Assembly (NCBI GenBank): GCA_949957035.1
Contig: CATLIP010000059.1
Span: 1 to 11,367 of the forward strand
Length of the DNA: 11,367 bases
Direction of reading: 5' to 3'
DNA from: an uncultured Lachnospiraceae bacterium
GTDB lineage: Bacteria; Bacillota_A; Clostridia; Lachnospirales; Lachnospiraceae
Both the position numbers and the translations under genes were made by a program. Positions 1-11,367 of this stretch are shown piece after piece. Below the pieces are notes generated by a model. That model worked only from the letters and a program-made list of their open reading frames with translations, was not told where the DNA came from and searched no databases. The stretch's first letter is position 1, and every line of letters starts with the position of its first letter.

Positions 1-1
1 A

Positions 2-574
2 AATGTATACGGCCAGGAGCCGGAGTATAACAGTATCTTGTTCACGATGGCGGACTCGGCTACCAATACGGAGATGGAGAAGGTCGGAAGGGATATCCTG
101 AAAAAGGACGGTGCGCTGAGCGTCAGCTATACCCATGATATCGAGAAGCAGTTAGACGATATGTTAAGGAGCCTGAACCTGGTCATCGTTGTCTTGATTA
201 TTTCGGCAGGGATGCTGGCGTTCGTGGTGCTTTATAACCTGAATACTGTTAATATTGCAGAGCGTAAGCGGGAATTGGCGACACTGAAAGTTTTAGGATT
301 TTACAATACGGAAGTGGCAGAATATGTGTACCGGGAGAATATCCTGCTGACCTTCCTTGGGGCAGTCGTGGGAGTCGTGCTTGGGAAGTTCCTGCATCTG
401 TTCATTATTGAGACGGTGGAGGTGGATTCAGCGATGTTCGGCAGGAATATCAATCTGCCGAGTTTTATCTATAGTCTGGCTCTTACGGTGGCATTTTCAC
501 TGATGATTAACGGAGTGATGTATTTTAAGCTCAAGAAGATAGATATGGTGGAGTCGTTAAAGAGTATTGAGTAA
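2..574 (+). CDS. FtsX-family ABC transporter permease, C-terminal part (5' end outside window)
   Basis: The reading frame is open from the window edge and ends with TAA at 572-574, so the gene continues upstream. About 190 residues are visible. They contain three hydrophobic segments: one starting at NLVIVVLIISAGMLAFVVL, one at ILLTFLGAVVGVVLG, and one near the end at FIYSLALTVAFSLMINGVMY. Between the first two is the sequence NIAERKRELATLKVLGF, which is typical of the cytoplasmic loop of FtsX/MacB-type permeases. The C-terminal VESLKSIE is also typical of this family. Such proteins work with a separate ATPase, often in antimicrobial peptide or lipid export, or in cell-wall control. The partner and substrate are not visible here. 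A TTG at 38 could be read as a start, but the frame is open upstream and the fragment lacks the N-terminal domains, so an internal start is unlikely. Confidence 0.9.
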   Translation, partial: NVYGQEPEYNSILFTMADSATNTEMEKVGRDILKKDGALSVSYTHDIEKQLDDMLRSLNLVIVVLIISAGMLAFVVLYNLNTVNIAERKRELATLKVLGFYNTEVAEYVYRENILLTFLGAVVGVVLGKFLHLFIIETVEVDSAMFGRNINLPSFIYSLALTVAFSLMINGVMYFKLKKIDMVESLKSIE

Positions 575-602
575 AAGTAAAAAGATATGATACGATATCA
601 TA
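567..602 (+). promoter_or_regulatory. Possible promoter with dyad before the AAA-ATPase gene
   Basis: A dyad of TATGATA (586-592), three bases, and TATCATA (596-602) lies in the short gap before the AAA-ATPase-like gene. A weak sigma-A-like pair, TTGAGT (567-572) and TACGAT (591-596) with an 18-bp spacer and an upstream TG, overlaps it. The dyad could be an operator. Both elements are AT-rich and short, so chance is a real alternative. Confidence 0.25.
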
Positions 603-636
603 CAGGGATAATAGGGTGAAAAGGAGGGCGCGGCGG

Positions 637-1923
637 ATGGCGAAGGTATTTAACACGGTCGGTTGTTGTGAACCGGAATTAAACTATATGGTAGATTTGA
701 CCGGCCGGCTGACAGAGATTAAGGGCATGGTAGATGCCGGGCTGTATTTTACGATGAACAGGGCGCGTCAGTTTGGGAAAACAACGATATTGACAGCGCT
801 TGCTGAATACCTGAAGAAAGATTATGAGACAGTCTACATGGATTTTCAGACGATGAGTTCATTAGCGTTTGAAAGTGAACAGTCATTTGTTGCGGCTTTT
901 TCCGAAGAATTACTGGATTTGGCTGAGAATTTGCCAGAGGATATTGAAAAGAAACTTGCTTCATTTGCCGGGCAGACAGATGGTACAAGTTCCCTCCAAA
1001 CACTTTTTAAAGCGTTGAAAAAATGGTGTGCTAAGGCGGAGAGGAAGATTGTCCTGATTATCGATGAAGTGGACGCAGCCTCGAACGACCAGGTATTTGT
1101 AGATTTCCTTGCACAGCTCCGTGCATATTATCTGAGGAGAAGAAAGTTCCCGGCATTTCAATCAGTGATTCTGGCCGGAGTTTACGATGTGCGCAGTGTC
1201 AGACGGAAAATAAGACCTGACGGGGAACACATGGAAAACAGCCCATGGAATATTGCCGCCAGATTTGATATAGATATGAGTTTTTCCTCAGATGATATTG
1301 CCGGTATGTTAAGGGAATATGAAAAGGATTATCACACTGGTATGGATATCACACTGATATCGGGAATGATTTACGCAATGACGTCCGGGTATCCGTATCT
1401 GGTATCCGGGATGTGTAAATATCTAGATGAAGAGATCGCGGGGACAGAAAAATTTAAGGATAAAAAAAGCGCCTGGACAAAGGAAGGGGTCTGTGAAGCT
1501 GAAAGAATGCTGGTGAAAGAAGACAACACTCTTTATCAGTCAATGATAAGAAAACTGAAACTCTATCCAAAGCTCCGGACCGTATTATATGAATTGCTTT
1601 TTACCGGCAGGCCGATTCCCTATACTGCAACAAATGATTATATGAAAGATGCGGTTATGTTTGGTTTTATCAGAAATGAGAAGGATACGGCAGTAGTCTT
1701 TAACCAGATCTTTGAATCGGTACTTTATAATTATTTCATCGCAGAGGAGTTTGCCTCTAGTGAGCTTTATAAAGCAGGGGTGCAGGAGAAGAATCAATTC
1801 ATTGTCGGAGGACATCTGGATGTCAGGAAGGTGCTTGAAAAATTTGTAGAAACTTTTGATTATTTATATGGGGATCAGGATGTTACTTTTTATGCTTGCT
1901 CTGATAGATGCCGTACAAACTAA
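637..1923 (+). CDS. AAA-ATPase-like protein lacking the usual C-terminal nuclease-like domain
   Basis: This 428-residue protein resembles the AAA-ATPase-like family (PF09820 type). Near the N-terminus is NRARQFGKTT (residues 41-50), a Walker A-like P-loop with Lys48. KIVLIIDEVDAAS (about 137-149) is a Walker B motif with Asp143 and Glu144. NSPWNIAARFDIDMSF (about 201-216) matches the conserved family segment after the ATPase core. Family members usually continue for about another hundred residues into a PD-(D/E)XK nuclease-like domain (PF08011 type). Here homology appears to stop after FDYLYGDQDVTF and the frame ends shortly afterwards, inside the 3' end of the convergent gene. The start is ATG 637 because AGGAGG at 622-627 sits nine bases before it. 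A GTG at 616 is in frame but lies upstream of that ribosome site. Family function is poorly known. The protein may be truncated but is otherwise uninterrupted. Confidence 0.8.
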   Translation: MAKVFNTVGCCEPELNYMVDLTGRLTEIKGMVDAGLYFTMNRARQFGKTTILTALAEYLKKDYETVYMDFQTMSSLAFESEQSFVAAFSEELLDLAENLPEDIEKKLASFAGQTDGTSSLQTLFKALKKWCAKAERKIVLIIDEVDAASNDQVFVDFLAQLRAYYLRRRKFPAFQSVILAGVYDVRSVRRKIRPDGEHMENSPWNIAARFDIDMSFSSDDIAGMLREYEKDYHTGMDITLISGMIYAMTSGYPYLVSGMCKYLDEEIAGTEKFKDKKSAWTKEGVCEAERMLVKEDNTLYQSMIRKLKLYPKLRTVLYELLFTGRPIPYTATNDYMKDAVMFGFIRNEKDTAVVFNQIFESVLYNYFIAEEFASSELYKAGVQEKNQFIVGGHLDVRKVLEKFVETFDYLYGDQDVTFYACSDRCRTN

Positions 1924-2512
1924 AAAGCCCCGCTCCTGCGAATAAACAGATTGTTATCCTAAGCCCTGCCAAACTGGAAATTACGGTGAACATAAACAGA
2001 AGAATTGTAAAGATGATAATCTTGACCAGAATATCATCTTTCTTTTTTTTATCCATTTTTACTCGTCCTAATATCGAGAACAGGGCAAGCATAACAAATA
2101 TCCCAATAGCGACAAGCAGAAAAATCGCGCCGATCTTATACGTTGTTTTCAGGTCATATCCTTTGATATAGAATTCATCCGGTCTGTCCGGATTATAATA
2201 GAGCAAGACATACTCTCCCTCTTTGAAAGGGCGATAATTCAGCCGAACATCTGTCTCATCGGTAAATATCTGATTTTCTACCTGGTATTCCACAATAGGA
2301 CTGAACCGACGCTTATGATGATAGGAAGATTCCCGGTAGCCGACGATCCTGCCTTCTGCCGCTGTACTGCATGTTTCTGTCTTCTTATGGGCAGAATGAA
2401 CCATGCCAAAGCCCAGAGCGCCAAAGCCCAGTGCAAACATAGTTAAAAACAGAATCAACAAAAATTTACCGCCTGATTTTTTGCCGGATTGTTTTAAATC
2501 TAAAGTTTCCAT
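1883..2512 (-). CDS. DUF3592-like membrane protein
   Basis: The product is about 209 residues. A basic, polar N-terminus is followed by one membrane helix (about residues 17-37), then an outside domain containing GRIVGYRESSYHHKRRFSPIVEYQVEN and a segment ending in YVLLYYNPDRPDEFYIKGYD. The pattern of GxVV, then Y/SPxVEY, then GxxVxLYYNPxxPxExxI is that of DUF3592 proteins. Three further hydrophobic stretches follow, giving about four membrane helices in all, and the protein ends in a basic KHKK tail. Function in this family is not known. The start is placed at the ATG complementary to 2510-2512, because GGAGG lies five bases before it on the minus strand. An in-frame ATG at 2527 would put that ribosome site inside the gene. 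The 3' end overlaps the convergent AAA-ATPase-like gene by 41 nt. Confidence 0.75.
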   Translation of the reverse strand: METLDLKQSGKKSGGKFLLILFLTMFALGFGALGFGMVHSAHKKTETCSTAAEGRIVGYRESSYHHKRRFSPIVEYQVENQIFTDETDVRLNYRPFKEGEYVLLYYNPDRPDEFYIKGYDLKTTYKIGAIFLLVAIGIFVMLALFSILGRVKMDKKKKDDILVKIIIFTILLFMFTVISSLAGLRITICLFAGAGLFSLYGIYQSKHKK

Positions 2513-2621
2513 ATGCTCCTCCAACATAGATTATCTTATCCACCCATCCGAAGGGAAATGTGTGCCTTTGAGTATACTATACCACTTCTGCTTTATAGAA
2601 TAAAGAAAATAATACTGGCAT

Positions 2622-2645
2622 CAGTAGGGCATCTGCTGTTTTTTT
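2622..2645 (+). terminator. Weak terminator-like hairpin in the divergent intergenic region
   Basis: CAGTAG (2622-2627) can pair with CTGCTG (2633-2638), with one G-U pair and a five-base loop, and seven T follow (2639-2645). It lies in the 260-bp gap between the DUF3592-like gene and the response regulator, upstream of the likely regulator promoter. There is no gene for it to end on this strand. It might terminate stray or leader transcription, but the stem is only six pairs. Confidence 0.3.
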
Positions 2646-2675
2646 AGCCCATTTTTCGGAAGAAAGTAAAAAAGA

Positions 2676-2737
2676 TTGCATAATACAGAAGATAAATGTA
2701 TGATAAATAGAGAGAAAAAGTTCTGAATCTGTCAGAA
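2676..2737 (+). promoter_or_regulatory. Likely promoter and leader hairpin of the response-regulator operon
   Basis: TTGCAT (2676-2681) and TATGAT (2699-2704) are separated by exactly 17 bp and form a reasonable sigma-A promoter. It would give a leader of about 60 nt. Just past the expected start site is the perfect hairpin TTCTGA (2721-2726), five bases, TCAGAA (2732-2737), which could be an operator or an RNA stem. The rest of the 2513-2772 gap holds an AGTATACT palindrome (2571-2578) that may serve as a -10 region for the divergent gene. No clear -35 was found for it. Confidence 0.5.
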
Positions 2738-2772
2738 TATGGAAGTGTTCAAGCAAGAATTGAGGGATAGTT

Positions 2773-4389
2773 ATGTTAAAAGTAATAGTTGCCGATGATG
2801 AAAAGATGATTTGCCTGCTAATCGCACATCTTTTGGACTGGGAGGAACATGGATTTGAGATTACAGGGATGGCATACAACGGACCGGAGGCCTTTGAGTT
2901 AATCGCCCGTCACAGACCGGATATCGTTATATCCGACATCCGCATGCCGGGCTTCGACGGTCTGGAATTGATTAAGAAGACAAAGGACGCCGGCATTAAC
3001 TCAGAATTCGTGATGATCAGCGGCTTCCGTCAGTTCGAATATGCCCAGAACGCCATGAAGTACGGTGTAAAGTATTATCTTCTCAAGCCAATCGAAGAAG
3101 ACAAGCTCCTAGAAATCGTTGAAGAAATCAAAGAACAGATTCTTGCGGCAAGACAGAAGGCAGATTATGAGAGCCATCTGGAACTAGAGGTACGTGAAAC
3201 AAGGGATTTGATGAAAAAGCGGTTTTTAACCGCCATGATCTATCCAGAACAGCCTCAGGCGTCTACAGAGATAGAAGAAGACAGGAATGAGGTCAACAGA
3301 AAGTTCCGGACGAATTTTAAAGAAGGAATCTATCGGGCAATATTCGTGAAACTGGACACAGAAGGAGAAGAAGAGATTGACTCCATCATTGCAGAGATAG
3401 AGAAGAGAATCCGGATTCTGGAGGAAGTGTGTGAAGAGCAGATTATGACGGAGACCCATTCCGGCGTGATTGCACTGTGCAACTACGATGCAGAGCGGGA
3501 GGGCGAAGTGTTGGGCGTTATTGAGAGGCTCTATGAAAATGTAAAGGAATACGTAGAACAGTTCGTAGGTTTTTCCGTAGTTCTGGGAGTGGGGAAGAAA
3601 GAGAAACATTTCTTTGATTCGAATCTTTGCATCCGAAGCGCGATTGATGCAATCAAATACCGTATCCGTTTTCCGGAAACAGGGCTTATCTATGCAGACA
3701 ACTATCACTTTGAGGCGTATCGGTTAGAAGATATCGTGAACAGTGGAAGGAAAAACGAGTACCTGTCCAGAGTGGAATCCGGAGACGCTGAGTCGGTAGT
3801 CGAGTTCCTGCGCGGCCTTATGCGTGAAATCCGATATGGTGAGAAAGAGTATTCCCCTGTGTATTATTTTGATATGCTAATCAGCTACGTAAACATACTT
3901 GCAGATTACTGTAAAAAGAATGATTACTGTAAGGAAGAGGTAGGAAACCTGCTTAAGAGATGGAACGTCCGCGTAGATAATGTGCGTTCGGAGAAGATGC
4001 TGTTCGATATCACGGAAGAGGTGATTCAAAAAACGATGGAAGGGATTGCGAAGGAGAAAAAAGAAAAAGACGCAAAGCCCATACGTATCTTGAAACAGTA
4101 TATCGAAGAACATTATATGCAGGAAATTAGTCTGAGTCGTATTGCGGAGCTGGTAGATATGAACGCCTCCTATTTAAGTTCCATGTTCAAACGTGAGACA
4201 GGCATGACATACTCGGAATACTTGTTCCAGTGTCGTGTAAAACAGGCCAGCAGGCTGCTTGTGGAGACGGCTAAGAGCATCGGAGAGATAGCAAAAGAAT
4301 GCGGATACCAGGACGCCAGATATTTCAGCAAGCAGTTCTCAAAACTGGTGGGGTTAAAGCCTTCTGAATACCGGAAACTGTATTCATAA
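2773..4389 (+). CDS. YesN-like response regulator with AraC-type DNA-binding domain
   Basis: This 538-residue cytoplasmic transcription regulator has an N-terminal receiver domain (about 1-120). It shows the acidic pocket Asp8/Asp9, the phosphate acceptor Asp55 in VISDIRMPGFDG, Ser83, and Lys105-Pro106. A central region of about 300 residues, rich in charged helices, is typical of YesN-type regulators. The C-terminal AraC/XylS helix-turn-helix pair spans about 436-538 and includes ISLSRIAELVDMNASYLS and the conserved IGEIAKECGYQDARYFSKQF. GAGGGA at 2762-2767 lies just before ATG 2773. The kinase gene follows after 22 nt, so the two are very likely co-transcribed partners. The most plausible targets are the sugar transporter genes downstream, where a direct repeat sits next to a promoter. 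The pairing is inferred from gene order. Confidence 0.93.
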   Translation: MLKVIVADDEKMICLLIAHLLDWEEHGFEITGMAYNGPEAFELIARHRPDIVISDIRMPGFDGLELIKKTKDAGINSEFVMISGFRQFEYAQNAMKYGVKYYLLKPIEEDKLLEIVEEIKEQILAARQKADYESHLELEVRETRDLMKKRFLTAMIYPEQPQASTEIEEDRNEVNRKFRTNFKEGIYRAIFVKLDTEGEEEIDSIIAEIEKRIRILEEVCEEQIMTETHSGVIALCNYDAEREGEVLGVIERLYENVKEYVEQFVGFSVVLGVGKKEKHFFDSNLCIRSAIDAIKYRIRFPETGLIYADNYHFEAYRLEDIVNSGRKNEYLSRVESGDAESVVEFLRGLMREIRYGEKEYSPVYYFDMLISYVNILADYCKKNDYCKEEVGNLLKRWNVRVDNVRSEKMLFDITEEVIQKTMEGIAKEKKEKDAKPIRILKQYIEEHYMQEISLSRIAELVDMNASYLSSMFKRETGMTYSEYLFQCRVKQASRLLVETAKSIGEIAKECGYQDARYFSKQFSKLVGLKPSEYRKLYS

Positions 4390-4411
4390 TTTCCACTATC
4401 GGGAGGCGCAC

Positions 4412-5434
4412 ATGAAAGCAGGAAACTATACAGTAAAAAGAATTAAGGATTGTATGAGGGACGGAATACTGTTATCCGCCGTCAGCCTTTCCGGTGTTGC
4501 GATGATGTACACAATAAAATCCAAAGGACTTTTGGGACTTGTACTTCTGATGCTGGCAGCATTGTGGATAATTCATTTCATAAAATACTACCGTCACATA
4601 TATCTTCCTAACCGCGGACTTGAAAAACTGGTAGAAGATTATAAGAACAGCGAAGATTTTGAAAGCTGCGAAGCTCTGTCTGAAACAGAGGATTTGATTC
4701 GGACTATCCAGCAGATGCTTTCATCCTTAGATACTATCGCGATTAAAGAAAAAAACGCCGAAATTCTCATGAAGAATGCGGAAATCAACAATCTGCAAGA
4801 CCAGATTAACCCACACTTTTTATATAACACTTTGGAGGTCATCCGTGGGGAAGCGTTAATCAACAAAGACCGGAAGGTAGCAGAAATGACAGCATCTTTA
4901 GCCAACCATTTCCGCTACAATATCAGCAGAAAAGAGAGCTTCGTCTATCTGAAAGACGAACTGAAAAACAGCATGAATTATTTTAATATCCAGAAGAACC
5001 GCTTCGGGGAAAAGGTTTCCTGTGAGATTCTCTACCATGACATTCAGGCAGAAGAAGTGGAATCCTGCTATGTCCCGAAACTTATCTTACAGCCCATCAT
5101 TGAGAATGCGATTTACCACGGCCTGGAATTAAAGATGGGGCAGGGAACCATCCGGATTCATATTACTGTTGCGGATAGCAACCTGAAAATCACTGTTGCC
5201 GACGATGGGAGCGGAATGTCAGGAGAGCAGTTAGATGCAATCAACAGTGATTATGACCAAAAAAGAGAGAATAATCGGCATAATGGAGTAGCGGTCAGAA
5301 ATATAAAGAAAAGGCTAAAATTGTACTGGGGCGACGACGCTTACATGTTTGCAGCCAGCGAGAAGGGCATAGGGACACAGATTAGTCTATCCATGCCCCT
5401 TGTCTACCAGAAAGAGGAGTATATGAACCAATAA
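4412..5434 (+). CDS. Short LytS/YesM-like sensor histidine kinase without extracellular sensor domain
   Basis: This 340-residue membrane kinase has two adjacent membrane helices (about 17-35 and 39-57) joined by only a few residues, so there is no extracellular ligand-binding domain. A linker of about 50 residues follows, then a helical stretch leading to the His_kinase (PF06580) motif QINPHFLYNT with phospho-acceptor His135. The HATPase part shows the N-box ILQPIIENAIYHG with Asn232, the G1 box DDGSGM (264-269) and the G2-like NGVAVRNIKKRL (291-302). Classical YesM proteins are near 580 residues, with a large outside domain and a HAMP domain. This one resembles short kinases that rely on a partner to sense sugar. 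GGGAGG precedes ATG 4412. The stop overlaps the next start by one base (TAATG), which suggests coupled translation and perhaps a physical partnership with the next product. Confidence 0.92.
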   Translation: MKAGNYTVKRIKDCMRDGILLSAVSLSGVAMMYTIKSKGLLGLVLLMLAALWIIHFIKYYRHIYLPNRGLEKLVEDYKNSEDFESCEALSETEDLIRTIQQMLSSLDTIAIKEKNAEILMKNAEINNLQDQINPHFLYNTLEVIRGEALINKDRKVAEMTASLANHFRYNISRKESFVYLKDELKNSMNYFNIQKNRFGEKVSCEILYHDIQAEEVESCYVPKLILQPIIENAIYHGLELKMGQGTIRIHITVADSNLKITVADDGSGMSGEQLDAINSDYDQKRENNRHNGVAVRNIKKRLKLYWGDDAYMFAASEKGIGTQISLSMPLVYQKEEYMNQ

Positions 5435-6921
5435 TGAAAAAGAGTGTATTACTGCTGAAAAATCTGAAAAAAGAAAAAGCGGGCAGTCAAATCCTCAACC
5501 ATTTTTTTCTGGAGGTATTCAGTGGGGAAATCGTCAATCTGATTGGTCTGGAGGGAAGCGGAAAAGAAGAGGTATATGCTATCTTGTTCGGAGAAGATAC
5601 CCCGGACAGCGGAGAAATTTCATTTGCAGGAAAACGCTGCACCAGAGGGCAGGAGATACCGGTGGAATCAGCCAACGGGATATTCTTTATTGGAAATCAG
5701 GAGCTTCTCATTCCGGATTTGTCCGTGGCAGAAAATCTGTATATTATCGAAAAGATAAATTATTTCCAATTCAGCGTATCCAAAAAAAAGATGGAGCTTC
5801 AGGCAAAACGCATTCTGAATGACTTCCATGTAGAAATCGAGCCGGGTGAGAAGGCAAAGAATCTGAACCGTTATGAAGGATATCTCATCCGTTTGATGCG
5901 GGCGTATCTAAAGCGGGCGAAGATGATTGTAGTGGATGATATTCTGGATGACTGCTCATATGAACATATCGGTCAGATTATTGGGATTCTTGAACGGTTT
6001 AAGAAAGAAGGAATCTCCATCCTCTGGATGAACAGCTATCCGGATGAAATCAGCGAGACAGCAGACCGGACGGTAGTAATTCGCGGCGGGAGGGACAGCT
6101 ATACCTTTTACCGTGGGGAATTTGACCGGACAAGCCTGATGAAAGCGCTGATTCAATGGGAAGATGCTGCTGGTAAACCTGCTGATGGAGAGCTTTTGGA
6201 GAAGCAGGAACGAGAGACAGAAAAAACAGTGGTCTTTCGCATGGAGAGGATTGAAAATGATTATTTTCAAGACCTAAGCTTCAATTGCAGGCGGGGAGAG
6301 ATTCTGGGAATCTACGATTTGCAGAAACGGTTCAGTGGGGAACTCCAAAAACTTCTGATGGGTCAATGTGATTATAGAGGAAGTCTTTTTTTGGAGGGAA
6401 AAACTTTTCATATAGAGGCAGAATATAAGCTGATTCAAAACAGAATAGGCGTTATTGACGGGGCGAAATACCAGTCTTCTGTCTTCCGGGAGTTATCAAT
6501 TTACGAGAACATTGAGATGGCGGTTTACCAAAAAACAGCGAAAGCCGGATGTCTGATTAACCGGCGGGTGAAGAGGTATCTGGATAAAATCGGATTGGAA
6601 GTCTGTGAATCTAACGGTCTGTCCAAATTATCTCCCCAAGTCAGCAGACGGGACGCTATGCAGATTATCTATAACAGATTGGGGCTTTCGAATCCCAAGG
6701 TACTGTTCTGTTTCCAGCCCTTCCTACGGTTGGATGCAGTTTCAAGGAAACAGTTGGAGGAGATATTGAAGGGCTTTGGGCAGCGTGGGATGGGCGTCGT
6801 GCTGAGCAGTGTGCACAGCTCAGAGCTGTCCCCCTTGTGCGACCGTATTCTGATGGTAGAGAACAACAAAATTATCCGTGAGATACACAAGGAAGAATTT
6901 TCAGAGCATTTCCAATCATAG
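5434..6921 (+). CDS. RbsA-like double ABC ATPase with degraded catalytic motifs (probable pseudo-ATPase)
   Basis: The 495-residue protein keeps the full two-domain layout of RbsA/XylG/MglA sugar ATPases, but the ATP-handling residues are largely lost. In domain 1 the P-loop is GLEGSGKEE (38-46): Lys44 remains but the Ser/Thr after it is Glu. The signature position reads LNRYEGY (144-150), the Walker B region is VVDDIL with Asp169 in place of Glu, and the switch-His position is Ser201 (MNSYPDEI). In domain 2 the glycine loop has become GIYDLQKRFSGE, the signature is LSPQVSR, and the Walker B Asp-Glu pair is Phe427-Gln428. The length is nearly the same as the active ATPase at 8091, and there are no stops or frameshifts, so the gene looks maintained. 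It probably does not drive transport. Its coupling to the kinase gene suggests a regulatory or docking role. This is inference. Confidence 0.88.
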   Translation: MKKSVLLLKNLKKEKAGSQILNHFFLEVFSGEIVNLIGLEGSGKEEVYAILFGEDTPDSGEISFAGKRCTRGQEIPVESANGIFFIGNQELLIPDLSVAENLYIIEKINYFQFSVSKKKMELQAKRILNDFHVEIEPGEKAKNLNRYEGYLIRLMRAYLKRAKMIVVDDILDDCSYEHIGQIIGILERFKKEGISILWMNSYPDEISETADRTVVIRGGRDSYTFYRGEFDRTSLMKALIQWEDAAGKPADGELLEKQERETEKTVVFRMERIENDYFQDLSFNCRRGEILGIYDLQKRFSGELQKLLMGQCDYRGSLFLEGKTFHIEAEYKLIQNRIGVIDGAKYQSSVFRELSIYENIEMAVYQKTAKAGCLINRRVKRYLDKIGLEVCESNGLSKLSPQVSRRDAMQIIYNRLGLSNPKVLFCFQPFLRLDAVSRKQLEEILKGFGQRGMGVVLSSVHSSELSPLCDRILMVENNKIIREIHKEEFSEHFQS

Positions 6922-6939
6922 TACACATTTTCCAAAAAT
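6909..6939 (+). promoter_or_regulatory. Direct repeat upstream of the transporter promoter, candidate response-regulator site
   Basis: TTTCCAATCAT (6909-6919) and TTTCCAAAAAT (6929-6939) match at nine of eleven positions and are spaced 20 bp apart, about two helix turns. The proximal copy ends seven bases before the -35 box at 6947. AraC-type activators commonly bind direct repeats in this position, so the YesN-like regulator encoded upstream is the obvious candidate. The distal copy overlaps the end of the pseudo-ATPase gene. Confidence 0.5.
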
Positions 6940-6946
6940 TAACGCA

Positions 6947-6975
6947 TTGATACCTCTTTTGGTGATTGATATACT
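6947..6975 (+). promoter_or_regulatory. Sigma-A promoter for the sugar transporter genes
   Basis: TTGATA (6947-6952) and TATACT (6970-6975) are separated by 17 bp, with an extended -10 TG at 6967-6968. This is a close match to the vegetative consensus. Transcription should begin near 6982, about 27 nt before the binding-protein start codon. It gives the transporter its own promoter, separate from the regulator operon. Confidence 0.7.
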
Positions 6976-7001
6976 TGCTATATCAAAAACACCAAAGGAG
7001 G
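6953..7001 (+). promoter_or_regulatory. Long hairpin that would mask the binding-protein ribosome site in read-through RNA
   Basis: The upper stem pairs 6966-6973 with 6979-6986 around the loop CTTGC. After a small internal loop, 6953-6964 pairs with 6990-7001 over 12 pairs, one of them G-U. The right arm contains the Shine-Dalgarno AAAGGAGG used by the gene at 7009. RNA read through from the upstream operon could fold and block initiation. RNA started at the internal promoter would lack the left arm and stay open. As DNA, the same dyad could instead be a repressor operator. Confidence 0.55.
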
Positions 7002-7008
7002 AGAAACA

Positions 7009-8004
7009 ATGAGAAGGATGTTGAAGAAGCTGTTTGCAGCGACAATTGTGTGTGCAATGCTGTTTTCCTTAGCGGCATGCAGTTCCGGAAGCGGAGATGC
7101 CGGAAGCGGCGGGGACTCAGAAGGCGGAGATTCTAAGGAGATTAAGATTGGATTCGTAGTCAGCGACATGTCGGATGCGTTTTTTGCACATCTTGTACAG
7201 AATATGGAAAAAGAGGCAAAGGAGCAAGGAGTCACGCTGACGACGAAAGAGTGTCCGGAAATCAGTGATAAGATTACGGGAATCGAGAATTTCATCGAGG
7301 CAGGATGCCAGACCATAATCTGCCATGTGACAGACGCAGATGCGTTGAAGGACGCTGCAAAGAGCGCAGAGGATGCAGGCGTACATTTTATTTCTTATGA
7401 TTCTGACATTGAAGGAACGTCCGCATTTATCGGAATCGATAATTATGAATATGGATATGAGATTGGAAAGAATGCGGCGGAATGGATTAACGAGACTTTT
7501 AAGGAGTCTGACAAGGTTCAGGTGGGTGTGTGCAATTACCCGGATTACCCGTTTCTTGTAGTCAGGGAAGAGGGAATCCTTGCAGCATTGGAGGAGCTGT
7601 CCCCGAACGCAGAAGTGGCTGTAACCGCAAAGGCAGGATACACCCCGGAAGGCGTGGATGTGGGCGACGCATGGGTACAGTCCAATCCTGACTTGAATGT
7701 AGTGGTAGGTATCAACGATGCTGGTGTCCTTGGGGTATACGAGACATTTAATGCAGCGGGAATCAAAGGAGAGAAACTGGGAATGTTCGGCGGAGATGCC
7801 GTAGACGACGCACTGGCGGCATTAAAGGACGGAGGCACATTCAGGGGAACGGTTTCTTCCGAGATGCTTGTACACTCTGATTACTTTGTTGACACGGCAG
7901 TAAAGCTGGCAAAGGGAGAAGAGCTTGAGGACAGGGAAATCTTATTCCCGCTGAAACCTGTAACGGCTGAAAATGTAGAAGAAATTATCGAGAGCCGGGA
8001 ATAA
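7009..8004 (+). CDS. Sugar ABC transporter substrate-binding lipoprotein (RbsB/XylF type)
   Basis: The 331-residue product starts with a lipoprotein signal: basic MRRMLKK, a hydrophobic core, then the lipobox LAAC with Cys24 as the lipidated residue. A Ser/Gly-rich linker follows. The mature protein begins IKIGFVVSDMSDAFFAHL, the first strand and ligand loop of periplasmic-binding-protein type 1 (Peripla_BP_4, PF13407). Other family marks are CHVTDADALKDAA, FISYDSD, VREEGILAAL and GINDAGVLGVY. It would be held on the outside of the membrane and deliver a sugar to the permease encoded downstream. The ligand cannot be named from sequence. GGAGGAG at 6997-7003 supports ATG 7009. An 86-nt gap with a terminator-like hairpin separates it from the ATPase gene, so it is probably made in excess, as is usual for binding proteins. 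Confidence 0.94.
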   Translation: MRRMLKKLFAATIVCAMLFSLAACSSGSGDAGSGGDSEGGDSKEIKIGFVVSDMSDAFFAHLVQNMEKEAKEQGVTLTTKECPEISDKITGIENFIEAGCQTIICHVTDADALKDAAKSAEDAGVHFISYDSDIEGTSAFIGIDNYEYGYEIGKNAAEWINETFKESDKVQVGVCNYPDYPFLVVREEGILAALEELSPNAEVAVTAKAGYTPEGVDVGDAWVQSNPDLNVVVGINDAGVLGVYETFNAAGIKGEKLGMFGGDAVDDALAALKDGGTFRGTVSSEMLVHSDYFVDTAVKLAKGEELEDREILFPLKPVTAENVEEIIESRE

Positions 8005-8012
8005 TCATTCAG

Positions 8013-8059
8013 GGATGGTATAGATGGATGGTGTAGTTTATACTGTACCATCCTTTTTT
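8013..8059 (+). terminator. Leaky terminator or attenuator with a duplicated left arm
   Basis: GGATGGTATAG (8013-8023) and GGATGGTGTAG (8026-8036) are near-identical copies, and each can pair over 11 bp with CTGTACCATCC (8043-8053). Six T follow (8054-8059). The second copy gives the compact hairpin with a six-base loop, the first a 19-base loop. Its place between the binding protein and the ATPase suggests partial termination that sets their relative amounts. Confidence 0.65.
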
Positions 8060-8090
8060 AGACTGTTTTTACGAGGTGGTGACGAATCAT

Positions 8091-9575
8091 ATGGAAAATA
8101 TTTTAGAGATAAAGAATGTGACTAAGAGATACCCGGGCGTCGTTGCGCTTAACAACATTTCCATAAACATTAGGCAGGGAGAGGTACATGCCCTTGTGGG
8201 GGAGAACGGCGCGGGAAAATCGACGATGATTAAGACAATCACGGGTGCAATTACGCCGGACGAGGGGGAGATTATCTATCAGGGGGAAAAATATCAGGGG
8301 ATGAACCCTATCCTGTCGGGCAAGGTCGGAATCGAGGCAATCTATCAGGAGTTTAATCTTGCGCCGGAACTGTCCGTAGAAGAAAATATTTACATGGGAA
8401 ACAAAGTAAACGAAGGCATTTTTATCGATAAGAAGGAACTGACAAGACGGACGCTTGACATATTGAAATCCTTGGATGCAGATATCGATCCGTCGACAAA
8501 GATACGGGATTTGACGGTGGCATATATGCAGCTTGTGGAGATTTCCAAAGCGCTGGCGAAAAATGTAAAGCTGTTGATTATGGACGAGCCTACGGCGCCG
8601 CTTACCGACAATGAGGTGGAGATACTTTTCAGGCTGGTAAAGCAGTTGAAGAAGGACGGTGTGTCCATTATCTATATCTCCCATCGGTTGGACGAGATTT
8701 TTGAGCTGGCGGACAGGGTGACGGTCATGCGGGACGGGCAGGTTATCAAGACCGTGGATATCCAGGAGACAAACAAAAACCAGCTGATTTTCGACATGGT
8801 AGGACGGGAACTGACGGAAACCTATCCTTCAAGAGAGCCAAAGTATGGGGATACCATACTGGAAGTCAGGAATCTGTGCGGCCCGTCTAATCTGGAAACC
8901 TCTTTTTGTGTGCGTGCAGGTGAAATCGTAGGCTTGGCAGGACTGGTAGGGGCAGGGCGGACGGAAATCGCAAGGCTGATTATCGGCGCAGACAAGAAAC
9001 ATGGCGGTGAAATCTACGTAAACGGCAGGCAGGTGAAGATTGAGTCCCCGAAAGATGCGGTGGAGAACGGAATCGCATATGTTTCGGAAGACCGAAAAAA
9101 CCAGGGGGTACTGTTGAAAATGCCGATTTACTGGAACATTACGCTCCCGATTCTAAAAAGGCTGTCTAAGCTTGGGTTTGTTGATGTAAAGAAAGAGAAT
9201 GAATGTGTGAATCAATATAAAGAAGCGCTGCATATAAAGACGCCTTCCGTGAACCAGCTTGTGGGAAACTTATCCGGTGGAAACCAGCAGAAGGTAGCCG
9301 TCGCAAAATGGCTGGCGAGCGAATCAAAGGTATTGATTCTGGACGAGCCTACCCGGGGAATTGACGTAGGCGCTAAACAGGAGATGTACGAATTGATTAA
9401 CAAATTGACCGCAGAAGGACTGGGAATCCTGATGATATCTTCTGAGATGGAGGAAATCATGGGAATGTCAGACAGGATGTTGGTTATGGCAGAGGGCAAG
9501 GTCGTAGGAGAGCTTCAAAAAGAAGAGTTTACACAGGATAAGATTCTGAAGCTTGCATCAAATATCACGAATTAG
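8091..9575 (+). CDS. RbsA-like sugar ABC transporter ATP-binding protein
   Basis: This 494-residue protein has two ABC domains in tandem. Domain 1 is complete: Walker A GENGAGKST (37-45), Q-loop Gln86, Walker B LLIMDEP with Asp165/Glu166, and switch His198 in YISHRLDEI. Domain 2 has GLAGLVGAGRTE (281-292), the usual Lys-to-Arg form of this family, plus the signature LSGGNQQKVAVAKWL (from 394) and Walker B LILDEPTRGID with Asp418/Glu419. It energises sugar uptake from the cytoplasmic side of the permease encoded 12 nt downstream. ATG 8091 is preferred: GGTGGTGA at 8075-8082 is eight bases upstream and the protein then begins MENILEIKNVTKRYPG, as in other members. GTG codons at 8076 and 8079 are in frame but lie within that ribosome site. 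It is the active counterpart of the degraded copy at 5434. Confidence 0.95.
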   Translation: MENILEIKNVTKRYPGVVALNNISINIRQGEVHALVGENGAGKSTMIKTITGAITPDEGEIIYQGEKYQGMNPILSGKVGIEAIYQEFNLAPELSVEENIYMGNKVNEGIFIDKKELTRRTLDILKSLDADIDPSTKIRDLTVAYMQLVEISKALAKNVKLLIMDEPTAPLTDNEVEILFRLVKQLKKDGVSIIYISHRLDEIFELADRVTVMRDGQVIKTVDIQETNKNQLIFDMVGRELTETYPSREPKYGDTILEVRNLCGPSNLETSFCVRAGEIVGLAGLVGAGRTEIARLIIGADKKHGGEIYVNGRQVKIESPKDAVENGIAYVSEDRKNQGVLLKMPIYWNITLPILKRLSKLGFVDVKKENECVNQYKEALHIKTPSVNQLVGNLSGGNQQKVAVAKWLASESKVLILDEPTRGIDVGAKQEMYELINKLTAEGLGILMISSEMEEIMGMSDRMLVMAEGKVVGELQKEEFTQDKILKLASNITN

Positions 9576-9587
9576 GAGGAGCGGGAA

Positions 9588-10556
9588 ATGGATAAATTTA
9601 AAAATTTTTTAAAACAGTATTTTGTGTTAGTTATATTGATATTTTTAATCATACTTTTCGGCGCGTTAAGTCCGGAATCATTCCTTAGTATGTCGAATAT
9701 GATTACCAGTGTCAGGCAGTCGTCAATCATGGGAATTGCCACGATCGGGCTTTTGTTCGTGATGATTGCAGGCGGAATCGATCTTTCTCTCAGTTCGGTC
9801 ATTTCCCTGCAGTCAGTGCTTGCTGCGGTGCTGCTGGCCAAAGCCGGATGGGGATTATTGCCCGCATATATCGTTGGTTTGCTGGTGACGACGCTGATTG
9901 GACTTTTGACAGGCGGAATTATTGTTAAGACGGGAATCTTTCCGATGATAGGAACGCTGGCTTTGCAGATTATCCTTCAAGGCGTAGCGTATCTGATTTG
10001 CGGCGGCATGCCTGTATCCGGGCTTCCGGCGTCTGCGAAGGTCATCGGACAGGGGTATGTGGGGCCGGTGCCGATTCCGGTAATTGTGTTCGTGGCGGTC
10101 ATCGTCATAGCGTCTGTCGTGCTGAACCGTACCTACATAGGAAGACATTTCTACGCAATCGGAAGTAACGAGGAGGCGGCCAGGCTTTCAGGAATCAATA
10201 CGGTGAAGCTAAAGGTGGCGACTTATGGTATCGGAGGTTTCCTGTCCGGTCTGGCAGGAATCATCATGCTGGCGAGAATCAGCTCCGGGCAGCCTACGGC
10301 AGGTAAGAATATGGAGATGGACTGCCTGTCTGCCGCGGTCATCGGCGGTGTCAGCTTAACGGGCGGCGAGGGACGTATCTCTACGGCGGTCTGCGGCGTA
10401 CTGATTATCGGTGTATTGACGAATGGTATGACAATCTTGAATATCAGCGAGTATTACCAGTTAGTCATCCGCGGCGGGATCTTCCTTGGCGCCGTATGTC
10501 TGGACGGAATTCAGAAACAGTTGGCAGGAAAGAAGAAAATGAAGAAGGCGGTATAA
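9588..10556 (+). CDS. RbsC-like sugar ABC transporter permease
   Basis: The 322-residue hydrophobic protein of the BPD_transp_2 family has roughly eight to ten membrane helices. Family hallmarks are AGGIDLSLSS (61-70), the cytoplasmic coupling segment RTYIGRHFYAIGSNEEAARLSGIN (about 181-204) that contacts the ATPase, and AAVIGGVSLTGGEG (249-262). The C-terminus is lysine-rich and cytoplasmic. It forms the sugar channel together with the ATPase of 8091 and takes ligand from the lipoprotein of 7009. Only one permease gene is present, so a homodimer is expected, as for RbsC. AGGAGGA at 9574-9580 overlaps the stop of the ATPase gene and supports ATG 9588, so the two are tightly linked. The same coupling surface could also bind the pseudo-ATPase of 5434, but this is speculation. 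Confidence 0.95.
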   Translation: MDKFKNFLKQYFVLVILIFLIILFGALSPESFLSMSNMITSVRQSSIMGIATIGLLFVMIAGGIDLSLSSVISLQSVLAAVLLAKAGWGLLPAYIVGLLVTTLIGLLTGGIIVKTGIFPMIGTLALQIILQGVAYLICGGMPVSGLPASAKVIGQGYVGPVPIPVIVFVAVIVIASVVLNRTYIGRHFYAIGSNEEAARLSGINTVKLKVATYGIGGFLSGLAGIIMLARISSGQPTAGKNMEMDCLSAAVIGGVSLTGGEGRISTAVCGVLIIGVLTNGMTILNISEYYQLVIRGGIFLGAVCLDGIQKQLAGKKKMKKAV

Positions 10557-10558
10557 TA

Positions 10559-11367
10559 ATGGGAGAGTACAGGAAATATATGGAGCCAAAATATGGGGAG
10601 GCCGCGCCGGAGGTAATGATTCCTGCACCGGAGATTCTCGACCTTGAGAATCCGGGGGCGTGGAGGGAAATGCATAACCGGGAGTCGACCGCCGCTATGA
10701 CAGAGGCAATGAAGAAATGCAATTGTTATGAGAAACTGATGGAGGTGTGTGCAGAAGAGGTGTATGTCCGGCTTGCGGGGGAGTGTGTCCGTATGAAAAT
10801 ATTTACTCCGCCGGAGGCAAAAGACGGGATGCCTGTACTGCTCTACTACCATGGAGGCTCATTTTCCATGAACAGTATCGAAGTCTATGAATATGTACAC
10901 CGTTATCTTTCTGCTTACGGGAATATGGTGGTGGTCGCGCCGGATTACCATCTTGCGCCGGAATATAAATTTCCGCAGGGGCTTTATGAGGCTTACGACG
11001 CGCTGTTGTGGGCTCGGGAACATATTGAGGACTATCACGGAAATCCTGATAAGCTCTGTGTGGCGGGGGATAGTTCCGGCGGGAACTTTGCCACAGTGAC
11101 GGCGATGATGGCAAGGGACAAAAAAGGACCGGAGATTCGAAAGCAGATTCTCTTTTATCCGTTGACCACGAATTATGAGGAGGAGATGACAGAGTCGGAG
11201 AAGCGTTATGGACTGGGGTATTTTCTTGAGTACAACTGTATGGACGACCCGATGGCAGTATATTTTAAGGAGACAGAGGAACGCAAGAACCCGATGGCTT
11301 CGCCGCTGTTATGCGAGGATTTGAAACATCTGCCAAAGGCGTGTATTGTGGCAGCAGAATGTGACCC
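10559..11367 (+). CDS. HSL-family alpha/beta hydrolase (esterase), 3' end outside window
   Basis: The frame runs from ATG 10559 to the window edge without a stop, 269 complete codons. It matches the alpha/beta hydrolase fold-3 (hormone-sensitive lipase) group: oxyanion-hole motif YYHGGS (96-101), the conserved APDYHLAPEYKFP region (127-139), and the nucleophile elbow GDSSGG (170-175) with Ser172. The visible end, AAECDP, fits the DPL(R/x)D motif that carries the catalytic Asp (Asp269). The catalytic His would lie beyond the window. The enzyme is probably cytoplasmic, with no signal peptide seen. Only two bases separate it from the permease stop, so it belongs to the transporter operon and may remove acyl groups from the imported sugar. 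The ribosome site is weak (AAGGCGG near 10546-10551), which suggests coupling to permease translation. Confidence 0.88.
   Translation, partial: MGEYRKYMEPKYGEAAPEVMIPAPEILDLENPGAWREMHNRESTAAMTEAMKKCNCYEKLMEVCAEEVYVRLAGECVRMKIFTPPEAKDGMPVLLYYHGGSFSMNSIEVYEYVHRYLSAYGNMVVVAPDYHLAPEYKFPQGLYEAYDALLWAREHIEDYHGNPDKLCVAGDSSGGNFATVTAMMARDKKGPEIRKQILFYPLTTNYEEEMTESEKRYGLGYFLEYNCMDDPMAVYFKETEERKNPMASPLLCEDLKHLPKACIVAAECD

Follow-up and report, generated by a model that had tools for sequence, protein, structure and literature searches.

Gene Layout of the Locus

The window analyzed here is a stretch of 11,367 nucleotides (nt) from an uncultured Lachnospiraceae bacterium (GCA_949957035.1, contig CATLIP010000059.1, positions 1 to 11,367), and its forward strand carries a gene (5434..6921) for a full-length RbsA-type protein with tandem nucleotide-binding domains (NBDs), both of whose nucleotide sites are degraded. 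This protein, hereafter pseudo-RbsA, was characterized with Pfam, NCBIfam, an alignment and a structure model. Its gene stands directly behind that of a sensor histidine kinase (HK) of 340 amino acids (aa) (4412..5434; PF06580 and HATPase_c by Pfam), which is preceded by a response regulator (RR) with a receiver and an AraC-type helix–turn–helix (HTH) domain of YesN-like type (2773..4389; PF00072, PF12833). On the same strand there follow a substrate-binding protein (SBP; 7009..8004; Peripla_BP_4, PF13407), probably a lipoprotein given the lipobox-like LAAC in its sequence, a canonical RbsA transporter ATPase with intact catalytic motifs (8076..9575), an RbsC permease (9588..10556; PF02653) and an alpha/beta hydrolase (10559..11365; Abhydrolase_3 by Pfam) that is open at the window end. 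An SBP, a PF06580 kinase and a YesN-type regulator are found together in this cluster.

The gene order RR-HK-pseudo-SBP-RbsA-RbsC-hydrolase was found in the window and in four whole loci (L001, L002, L003 and L017), in all of which the response regulator is the first gene of the module and the hydrolase is the conserved next gene behind it. L002 belongs to Lachnospiraceae bacterium MD308 and L003 to Merdimonas faecis, while L017 is the locus of the copy in genome G243, which is 33% identical to the window pseudo-RbsA. The window binding protein has an orthologue in L001 at 73%.

Loss of Catalytic Residues in a Full-Length RbsA Homolog

A sequence-only reading of the window had described an intact full-length RbsA-type protein whose start overlaps the kinase stop, with a normal ATPase gene 1.2 kb downstream. 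Both statements were accurate: the frame encodes 495 aa from an ATG with no internal stop, the A of its start codon doubles as the final A of the kinase TAA (TAATG), and the canonical RbsA gene starts at 8076, 1154 nt past the pseudo-RbsA stop. The Pfam model ABC_tran matched one stretch of pseudo-RbsA with 59 bits compared to two stretches of the window's real RbsA with 172 bits, and the five best NCBIfam models (XylG, AraG, GguA and RbsA types) scored 136-170 bits on pseudo-RbsA compared to 488-561 on real RbsA. The structure model (predicted local distance difference test, pLDDT, 81.5) was recognized as a tandem NBD fold by both Foldseek and VIA-align, so that a protein of about 500 aa, related to RbsA and with the predicted fold of RbsA, is present.

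Aligned to the window's real RbsA, the P-loop of NBD1 (GLEGSGK-EE) retains its Lys and has lost the Ser/Thr, the Q-loop Gln is gone, Walker B has Asp-Asp for Asp-Glu and the H-loop has Asn-Ser for Ser-His. In NBD2, GIYDLQKRFSGE stands at the P-loop position, VSRRDAM replaces the signature LSGGNQQ and Phe-Gln replaces the Asp-Glu of Walker B. The alignment bore out the earlier claim that key residues are lost in both sites, except that NBD1 keeps the Walker A Lys and the Walker B Asp; it confirmed Phe-Gln at the second Walker B and the missing signature, and it showed a replaced P-loop in domain 2, where the Lys position is already Arg in ordinary RbsA. Absent are the NBD1 residues expected of a functional ATPase (the Ser/Thr of Walker A, the Glu of Walker B, the H-loop His and the Q-loop Gln) and an LSGGQ-type signature in NBD2. 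Judged by its aligned residues, the window pseudo-RbsA lacks what ATP hydrolysis requires, and it has been kept at full length with a predicted tandem-NBD fold.

A protein search returned the window protein and 95 close relatives at 42-82% identity, some of them chimeric or short, below which identity falls to 26% and canonical RbsA-like proteins begin. Eighty-seven of these 96 proteins (the window's own included) were aligned, leaving out four chimeras and five proteins of <430 aa, and 43 representatives were taken at a 90% identity cut. The Q-loop Gln and H-loop His were missing at the aligned columns in the representatives, and the NBD2 Walker B read FQPF in 42 of 43, with FEPY in P0084. 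Being common to 43 representatives of the 87 aligned members, the losses are not due to chance. The dN/dS ratio of pseudo-RbsA was low (0.029), where a neutral value would have told against the sequence-only proposal; this figure is indicative only, as it comes from very few changes in one pair (L001/L002), all other pairs being saturated at silent sites. The four chimeric proteins (P0082, P0090, P0094 and P0096) join RR::pseudo (with two different junctions), pseudo::RbsC and SBP::pseudo, and are probably assembly artefacts or products of recombination within the operon.

A scan of genome contigs with A1 gave ten loci, of which only L001-L003 were true members. L004 and L007 were matched via their canonical RbsA, yet each has a pseudo-RbsA module upstream of that RbsA. 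Genome searches with A1 gave matches in 2 of 397 family genomes, in 1/3, 2/6 and 1/16 genomes of three genera and in 2 of 145 relatives, and so few matches indicate that the window's own subfamily is rare in the sample. No relatives of the window family were found on viral contigs. The wider class came to light only through a kinase-first search.

Degraded RbsA Follows Short Histidine Kinases

Two kinase-first surveys were performed. The first used a profile of four kinases in 299 genomes of the family to which genome G003 belongs; up to seven candidates per genome were scored, the counts being lower bounds, and, leaving aside the query loci in G003 and G243, all of the 105 listed places (40 + 33 + 20 + 12) were read. 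The second used a profile of 25 kinases in 391 genomes of the class, with up to five candidates per genome scored and 31 places read, these being the best-scoring among the matches listed together with two further short ones. A degraded RbsA was called where an RbsA-like frame of >360 aa started no more than 250 nt behind the kinase and held at most 9 of 14 catalytic residues.

A degraded RbsA lay directly downstream of 81 of the 91 kinases shorter than 400 aa compared to one of the 45 kinases of 400 aa or longer (p = 9e-25). The same pattern was seen in each set, with 68/73 short and 1/32 long kinases in the family and 13/18 short and 0/13 long kinases in the class. The short kinases mostly consist of a membrane hairpin and a kinase domain and the long ones are mostly sensor-bearing; gene order thus links this kind of pseudo-RbsA with kinases that lack a sensor domain. 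The sequence-only reading had staked its proposal beforehand on the co-occurrence of kinase and degraded ATPase in other genomes, and this co-occurrence is conserved. Taking the earliest possible start codon, 74 of 80 loci have a pseudo-RbsA that either overlaps the kinase stop or starts no more than 35 nt past it, and the module is present in at least 43 of the 299 sampled family genomes (42 with loci, and G003). Seven long-kinase family loci (L098, L102, L106, L107, L179, L181 and L184) adjoin RbsA-RbsC and have no pseudo-RbsA. The sole long kinase followed by a degraded RbsA, that of L053, has 565 aa with a sensor region and transmembrane (TM) windows at 27-45 and 264-282, and its partner is the least degraded copy (8/14 residues kept) and the one that the tree places closest to the canonical RbsAs; L053 is possibly an intermediate.

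Degradation was scored in 43 pseudo-RbsAs (39 loci together with the copies of the window, L001, L003 and G243) and in 36 canonical RbsAs (32 from the same loci and four transporter ATPases). The pseudo-RbsAs kept 0-8 of the 14 catalytic residues compared to 13-14 in the canonical proteins. None of the 14 scored cleft residues was common to all 43; the Walker A Lys was kept in 24 and the P-loop was wholly lost in some copies. Several motifs were retained in L053 (8/14) and L056 (7/14). Among the 120 proteins listed by a search for the L045 type, the NBD1 Walker B Asp, the H-loop His and the NBD2 Walker B Asp were found in none, the Walker A Lys in 82 and the Q-loop Gln in 49. This partial retention of Lys and Gln suggests that nucleotide binding at NBD1 may survive in some members, and that hydrolysis hardly does. 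Residues that were kept in the 43 pseudo-RbsAs look structural (N359 in 43/43, G288 in 40/43, E289 in 39/43). The Asn in the helix after each former Q-loop is retained (N359, and N101 in 34/43), in a stretch lining the permease groove in ABC importers.

A Kinase Hairpin Without a Sensor

In the structure model of the window kinase, helices 8-34 and 38-79 are separated by a three-residue turn. Hydropathy placed one segment of this kinase over the threshold, and two or three segments (partly overlapping) within the first 65 residues of four relatives, while Pfam found kinase domains only on the window kinase. As modeled, the window kinase begins with two helices that form a hairpin around a very short turn, and it has no extracytoplasmic domain. 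In the 54 pseudo-RbsA-linked short kinases with exactly two predicted helices, no more than 24 aa separate the TM windows. For six others of the pseudo-RbsA-linked short kinases, no membrane helix was predicted at all (L070, L138, L144, L161, L162 and L165), five of them securely, since the L138 frame runs off its contig. Zero predicted membrane helices were also seen in the short kinases of L190, L137, L157 and L166, which have no RbsA-like gene behind them; in L137 and L157 an RbsC-like gene lies about 3.5 kb upstream of the kinase.

Variant Loci and Relationships Among Module Members

An RbsA-RbsC pair follows pseudo-RbsA in 28 of 39 family loci, the stretch read behind pseudo-RbsA varying up to about 12 kb and that of L055 ending with the contig. 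L074 and L084 have, directly behind pseudo-RbsA, an extra diverged permease (RbsC') in addition to a complete SBP-RbsA-RbsC. The order RR-HK-pseudo-RbsC' was found in L170 (the same locus as L144) and L171 (= L161), and RR-HK-pseudo-SBP-like-RbsC' in L172 (= L165); all three have a kinase with no predicted membrane helix, and no canonical RbsA was found within the stretches read. L171 and L172 adjoin a peptide-type importer, identified in L171 by Pfam (SBP_bac_5) and in L172 by position and gene sizes. In L173 (RR-HK-pseudo-RbsC') the kinase has three predicted helices and in L174 (RR-HK-pseudo-SBP-RbsC') two. Seven RbsC' copies shared a mean identity of 24% with each other and 27% with seven other RbsCs, which among themselves reached 46%, a figure raised by the close orthologues of the window, L001 and L003. 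P0259 is a single chain of 837 aa in which a complete kinase is followed by a complete pseudo-RbsA; an alignment of this fusion with half-length rows, in which the invariant columns were confined to one half, was judged faulty and set aside.

P0126 is an 829-aa protein that joins a BPD_transp_2 permease with ABC_tran domains, and a chain of L048 (5899-8349, - strand) that combines an AraC-type HTH, a cupin and a glycoside hydrolase 39 domain adjoins a pseudo-RbsA module.

In the tree, a single branch parted 53 pseudo-RbsA rows from 28 canonical ones with a Shimodaira–Hasegawa-like approximate likelihood ratio test (SH-aLRT) support of 100, the tree being a quick, unrooted one of a subset with very long branches. 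Mirror-tree comparison of 31 loci gave correlations of pseudo-RbsA with HK of r = 0.66, with RR of 0.76 and with RbsC of 0.59; the partial correlation was 0.15 with HK given RR and 0.53 with RR given HK. L045-type copies occur in named hosts that include Mobilisporobacter, Anaerocolumna, Lachnoclostridium phytofermentans, Clostridium, Caproiciproducens and Paenibacillus, under names such as ATP-binding or ribose/arabinose transport protein. The Mobilisporobacter senegalensis protein P0197 is identical in sequence to the copy of L073, located behind a kinase and ahead of RbsA-RbsC; P0227 comes from L. phytofermentans, and P0287 and P0303 from Paenibacillus sp. A PDB sequence search at E 0.001 gave no RbsC relative, and when the window's real RbsA was searched at E 1e-30, none of 14 matching sequences was an RbsA-family chain, which left no template for a complex.

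Neighboring Genes and Intergenic Features

The hydrolase (10559..11365) is perhaps a substrate-processing enzyme. Beyond it, L001 (15100-16293) and L003 (11310-12533) encode an Amidohydro_2 protein and L017 (1762-3375) a mannitol dehydrogenase/fructuronate reductase-like protein, which hints at an esterified or uronate-like substrate. The gap between the pseudo-RbsA and binding-protein genes holds, at 6940-6998, a promoter-like TTGATA-17-TATACT with TG, and an inverted repeat (TTTTGGTG / CACCAAA) flanks the downstream part of this site; the two are perhaps a target of the response regulator. Promoter-like sites in that region were no more numerous than in shuffles, and the idea of a conserved promoter ahead of the binding-protein gene was dropped, as L001 has a mere 33 nt at the equivalent place. 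Between the binding-protein and RbsA genes lies a terminator-like hairpin of 12 pairs with a T run (8026-8053), as if for an excess of binding protein over transporter. Upstream of the operon, at 616-2527, an AAA_35/AAA-ATPase_like gene and a convergent DUF3592 gene overlap at the 3' end of the former, and the end of an FtsX-like protein, judged by eye only, lies at 2-574, outside the operon.

Discussion

The extra RbsC' genes, the helix-free kinases, the P0259 fusion and the long-kinase loci without pseudo-RbsA together point to pseudo-RbsA as what likely feeds the kinase and to an RbsC-type permease as its putative membrane partner. We propose, with a probability of roughly 60%, that pseudo-RbsA couples the signal in a receptor derived from a CUT2 (RbsABC-type) sugar importer with a dead motor. 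Pseudo-RbsA would occupy the position of RbsA beneath an RbsC-type permease, using the RbsC of the locus or, in some relatives, the dedicated RbsC'. A substrate-loaded binding protein or the conformation of the permease would then move the dead motor instead of powering transport, and the dead motor would touch the kinase and set its kinase/phosphatase balance, whereupon the response regulator would control the binding-protein, ATPase, permease and hydrolase genes. The sequence-only reading had suggested such a signaling subunit; it is partly supported, namely in its core, a signaling role tied to the kinase, and the mechanism it gave, in which the subunit would dock on or compete for the permease, is a putative one. 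The model predicts a kinase without an extracytoplasmic domain and, in some relatives, a dedicated permease, and both were seen. Whether the module generalizes to a receptor class is evenly balanced in our estimate: binding protein, RbsC-type permease and dead RbsA would form an ATP-independent receptor that docks on a sensor-less (in some cases helix-free) kinase, and in the most derived loci it would have its own permease and stand beside an unrelated importer that it perhaps controls.

Several observations weigh against this reading. Ten of the 91 short kinases lack the simple arrangement: L086 has a half-length pseudo-ATPase of 251 aa with a single NBD (14776-15531, - strand) directly upstream of the regulator, the copy in L120 is cut by the contig end and that in L122 is on the opposite strand, L113 and L155 have a canonical RbsA in that place, and no RbsA-like neighbor was found behind the short kinases of L126, L137, L157, L166 and L190. 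The profiles were built from pseudo-RbsA-linked kinases and may favor such kinases, and the long kinases are also the weaker profile matches; as length goes with profile similarity, the rate found may be too high for short kinases at large. The P0259 fusion is a single cluster (three sequences, one contig) and could be an assembly or stop-codon error. Mirror-tree correlations were high among all module members and picked out no single partner, and the proposal does not rely on them. To these are added the few changes behind the dN/dS value, the 11 of 39 family loci with no RbsA-RbsC pair behind pseudo-RbsA in the stretch read, and loci that adjoin sugar-catabolism genes (ROK-SIS-PfkB in L062, PfkB in L066).

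The last two observations would fit a soluble sensor, whose relict nucleotide clefts bind a cytoplasmic metabolite (a sugar phosphate or nucleotide) and which regulates the kinase with no permease involved, as would the Walker A Lys kept by many copies (24/43, and 82/120 of the L045-type relatives). We consider this rather unlikely: no cleft residue is kept throughout the 43 copies, some of which have no P-loop, and the dedicated RbsC' genes and the binding proteins of the cassette would be left unexplained. The fold and length that pseudo-RbsA is predicted to share with RbsA, and its place beside a real transporter in 28/39 loci, are also what would be expected of a brake on transport that limits uptake by competing with RbsA for RbsC, kinase adjacency ensuring only co-expression. 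The link, however, is to short kinases and not to RbsABC operons, as the seven long-kinase RbsA-RbsC loci without pseudo-RbsA illustrate, modules exist without RbsA-RbsC in the stretch read, and the kinase would remain without an input, which makes a brake improbable.

The regulator gave the highest distance correlation of the four partners compared (r 0.76; partial 0.53 given HK), which is consistent with a role as a scaffold for, or phosphatase modulator of, the response regulator or the kinase dimer, the ABC fold being reused as a protein-binding platform; the constraint on the groove-side Asn and the presence of RbsC' argue against this, and we regard it as quite improbable. That the gene is a duplicate in decay, or that its product remains an active ATPase despite its unusual sites, is highly improbable. 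Several motifs are kept in some members, such as those of L053 and L056, but full-length open frames persist at low identity across genomes with common replacement motifs and a low dN/dS, grounds on which pseudogene decay was rejected, and in the window copy H-loop, Q-loop and signature are all lost together.

The proposed receptor with a dead motor shares parts with several known systems. Transporter homologues have been reused as a receptor or regulator in UhpC (with kinase UhpB), SUR1 and CFTR, which is the likeness to pseudo-RbsA; UhpC is a protein of the major facilitator superfamily, and SUR1 and CFTR have retained nucleotide binding and either form channels or act on them. XylFII-LytS resembles the window module in exerting sugar control through a binding protein, a kinase and a regulator. 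The CUT2 importers RbsABC, XylFGH and MglBAC share sequence family, tandem-NBD fold and gene neighbors with pseudo-RbsA, which differs from them in lacking the catalytic hallmarks and in that its gene belongs to the RR-HK unit. In PstSCAB-PhoU-PhoR the importer is active and the PhoU protein is the link to the kinase, unlike in the window module. The likeness lies in the control of a kinase by the state of an ABC importer, as described in the part of PMC5775613 cited here.

In the cited parts of the Bce literature, a kinase that lacks a sensor domain is paired with an active ABC transporter, flux sensing being the presumed mode of action (PMC10314905, PMC7828314), with signaling by BceAB proposed to proceed via conformational cycling or flux (PMC10314905). 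Like BceAB-BceS as presented there, the window module would have ABC proteins feed a kinase without an extracellular sensing domain (PMC10314905, PMC7828314), and a kinase with two TM helices and no extracellular sensor is what was found. BceAB is one active transporter in the same account (PMC10314905), whereas the window module has a separate dead ATPase of RbsA type, from an importer family, with a PF06580 kinase and a YesN-type regulator. A BceB-type permease with a large extracellular loop and an active BceA are absent, an RbsC-type permease (PF02653) and a dead kinase-linked ATPase being found in their stead. The sugar three-component system CuaD-CuaS-CuaR likewise relies on a binding protein, a kinase and a regulator, and its CuaS (627 aa, TM 30-49 and 316-339) has a large extracytosolic part (PMC10384115, in the sections cited). 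In such SBP-kinase systems, the same sections state, the extracytosolic section of the kinase meets the binding protein (PMC10384115), a section of which window-type kinases have practically none, the turn in the window kinase model being three residues long; a pseudo-ATPase is not named in these sections for CuaDSR (PMC10384115). Searches of the open-licence PMC literature, outside which most subscription papers lie, gave no account of a kinase paired with a degraded RbsA among the matches listed. Transporter-linked two-component sensing is already known and the new element is the dead importer motor.

The proposed coupling offers an input for a set of PF06580/YesN two-component systems that lack a sensor domain. 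It also provides a tractable example of how an enzyme family became a signaling family, with different stages present in living genomes, and a warning that the annotation sugar ABC transporter ATP-binding protein may be carried by genes that do not encode transporter motors. Overall, the pseudo-RbsA modules suggest that cells have turned transporter parts into signal receptors.

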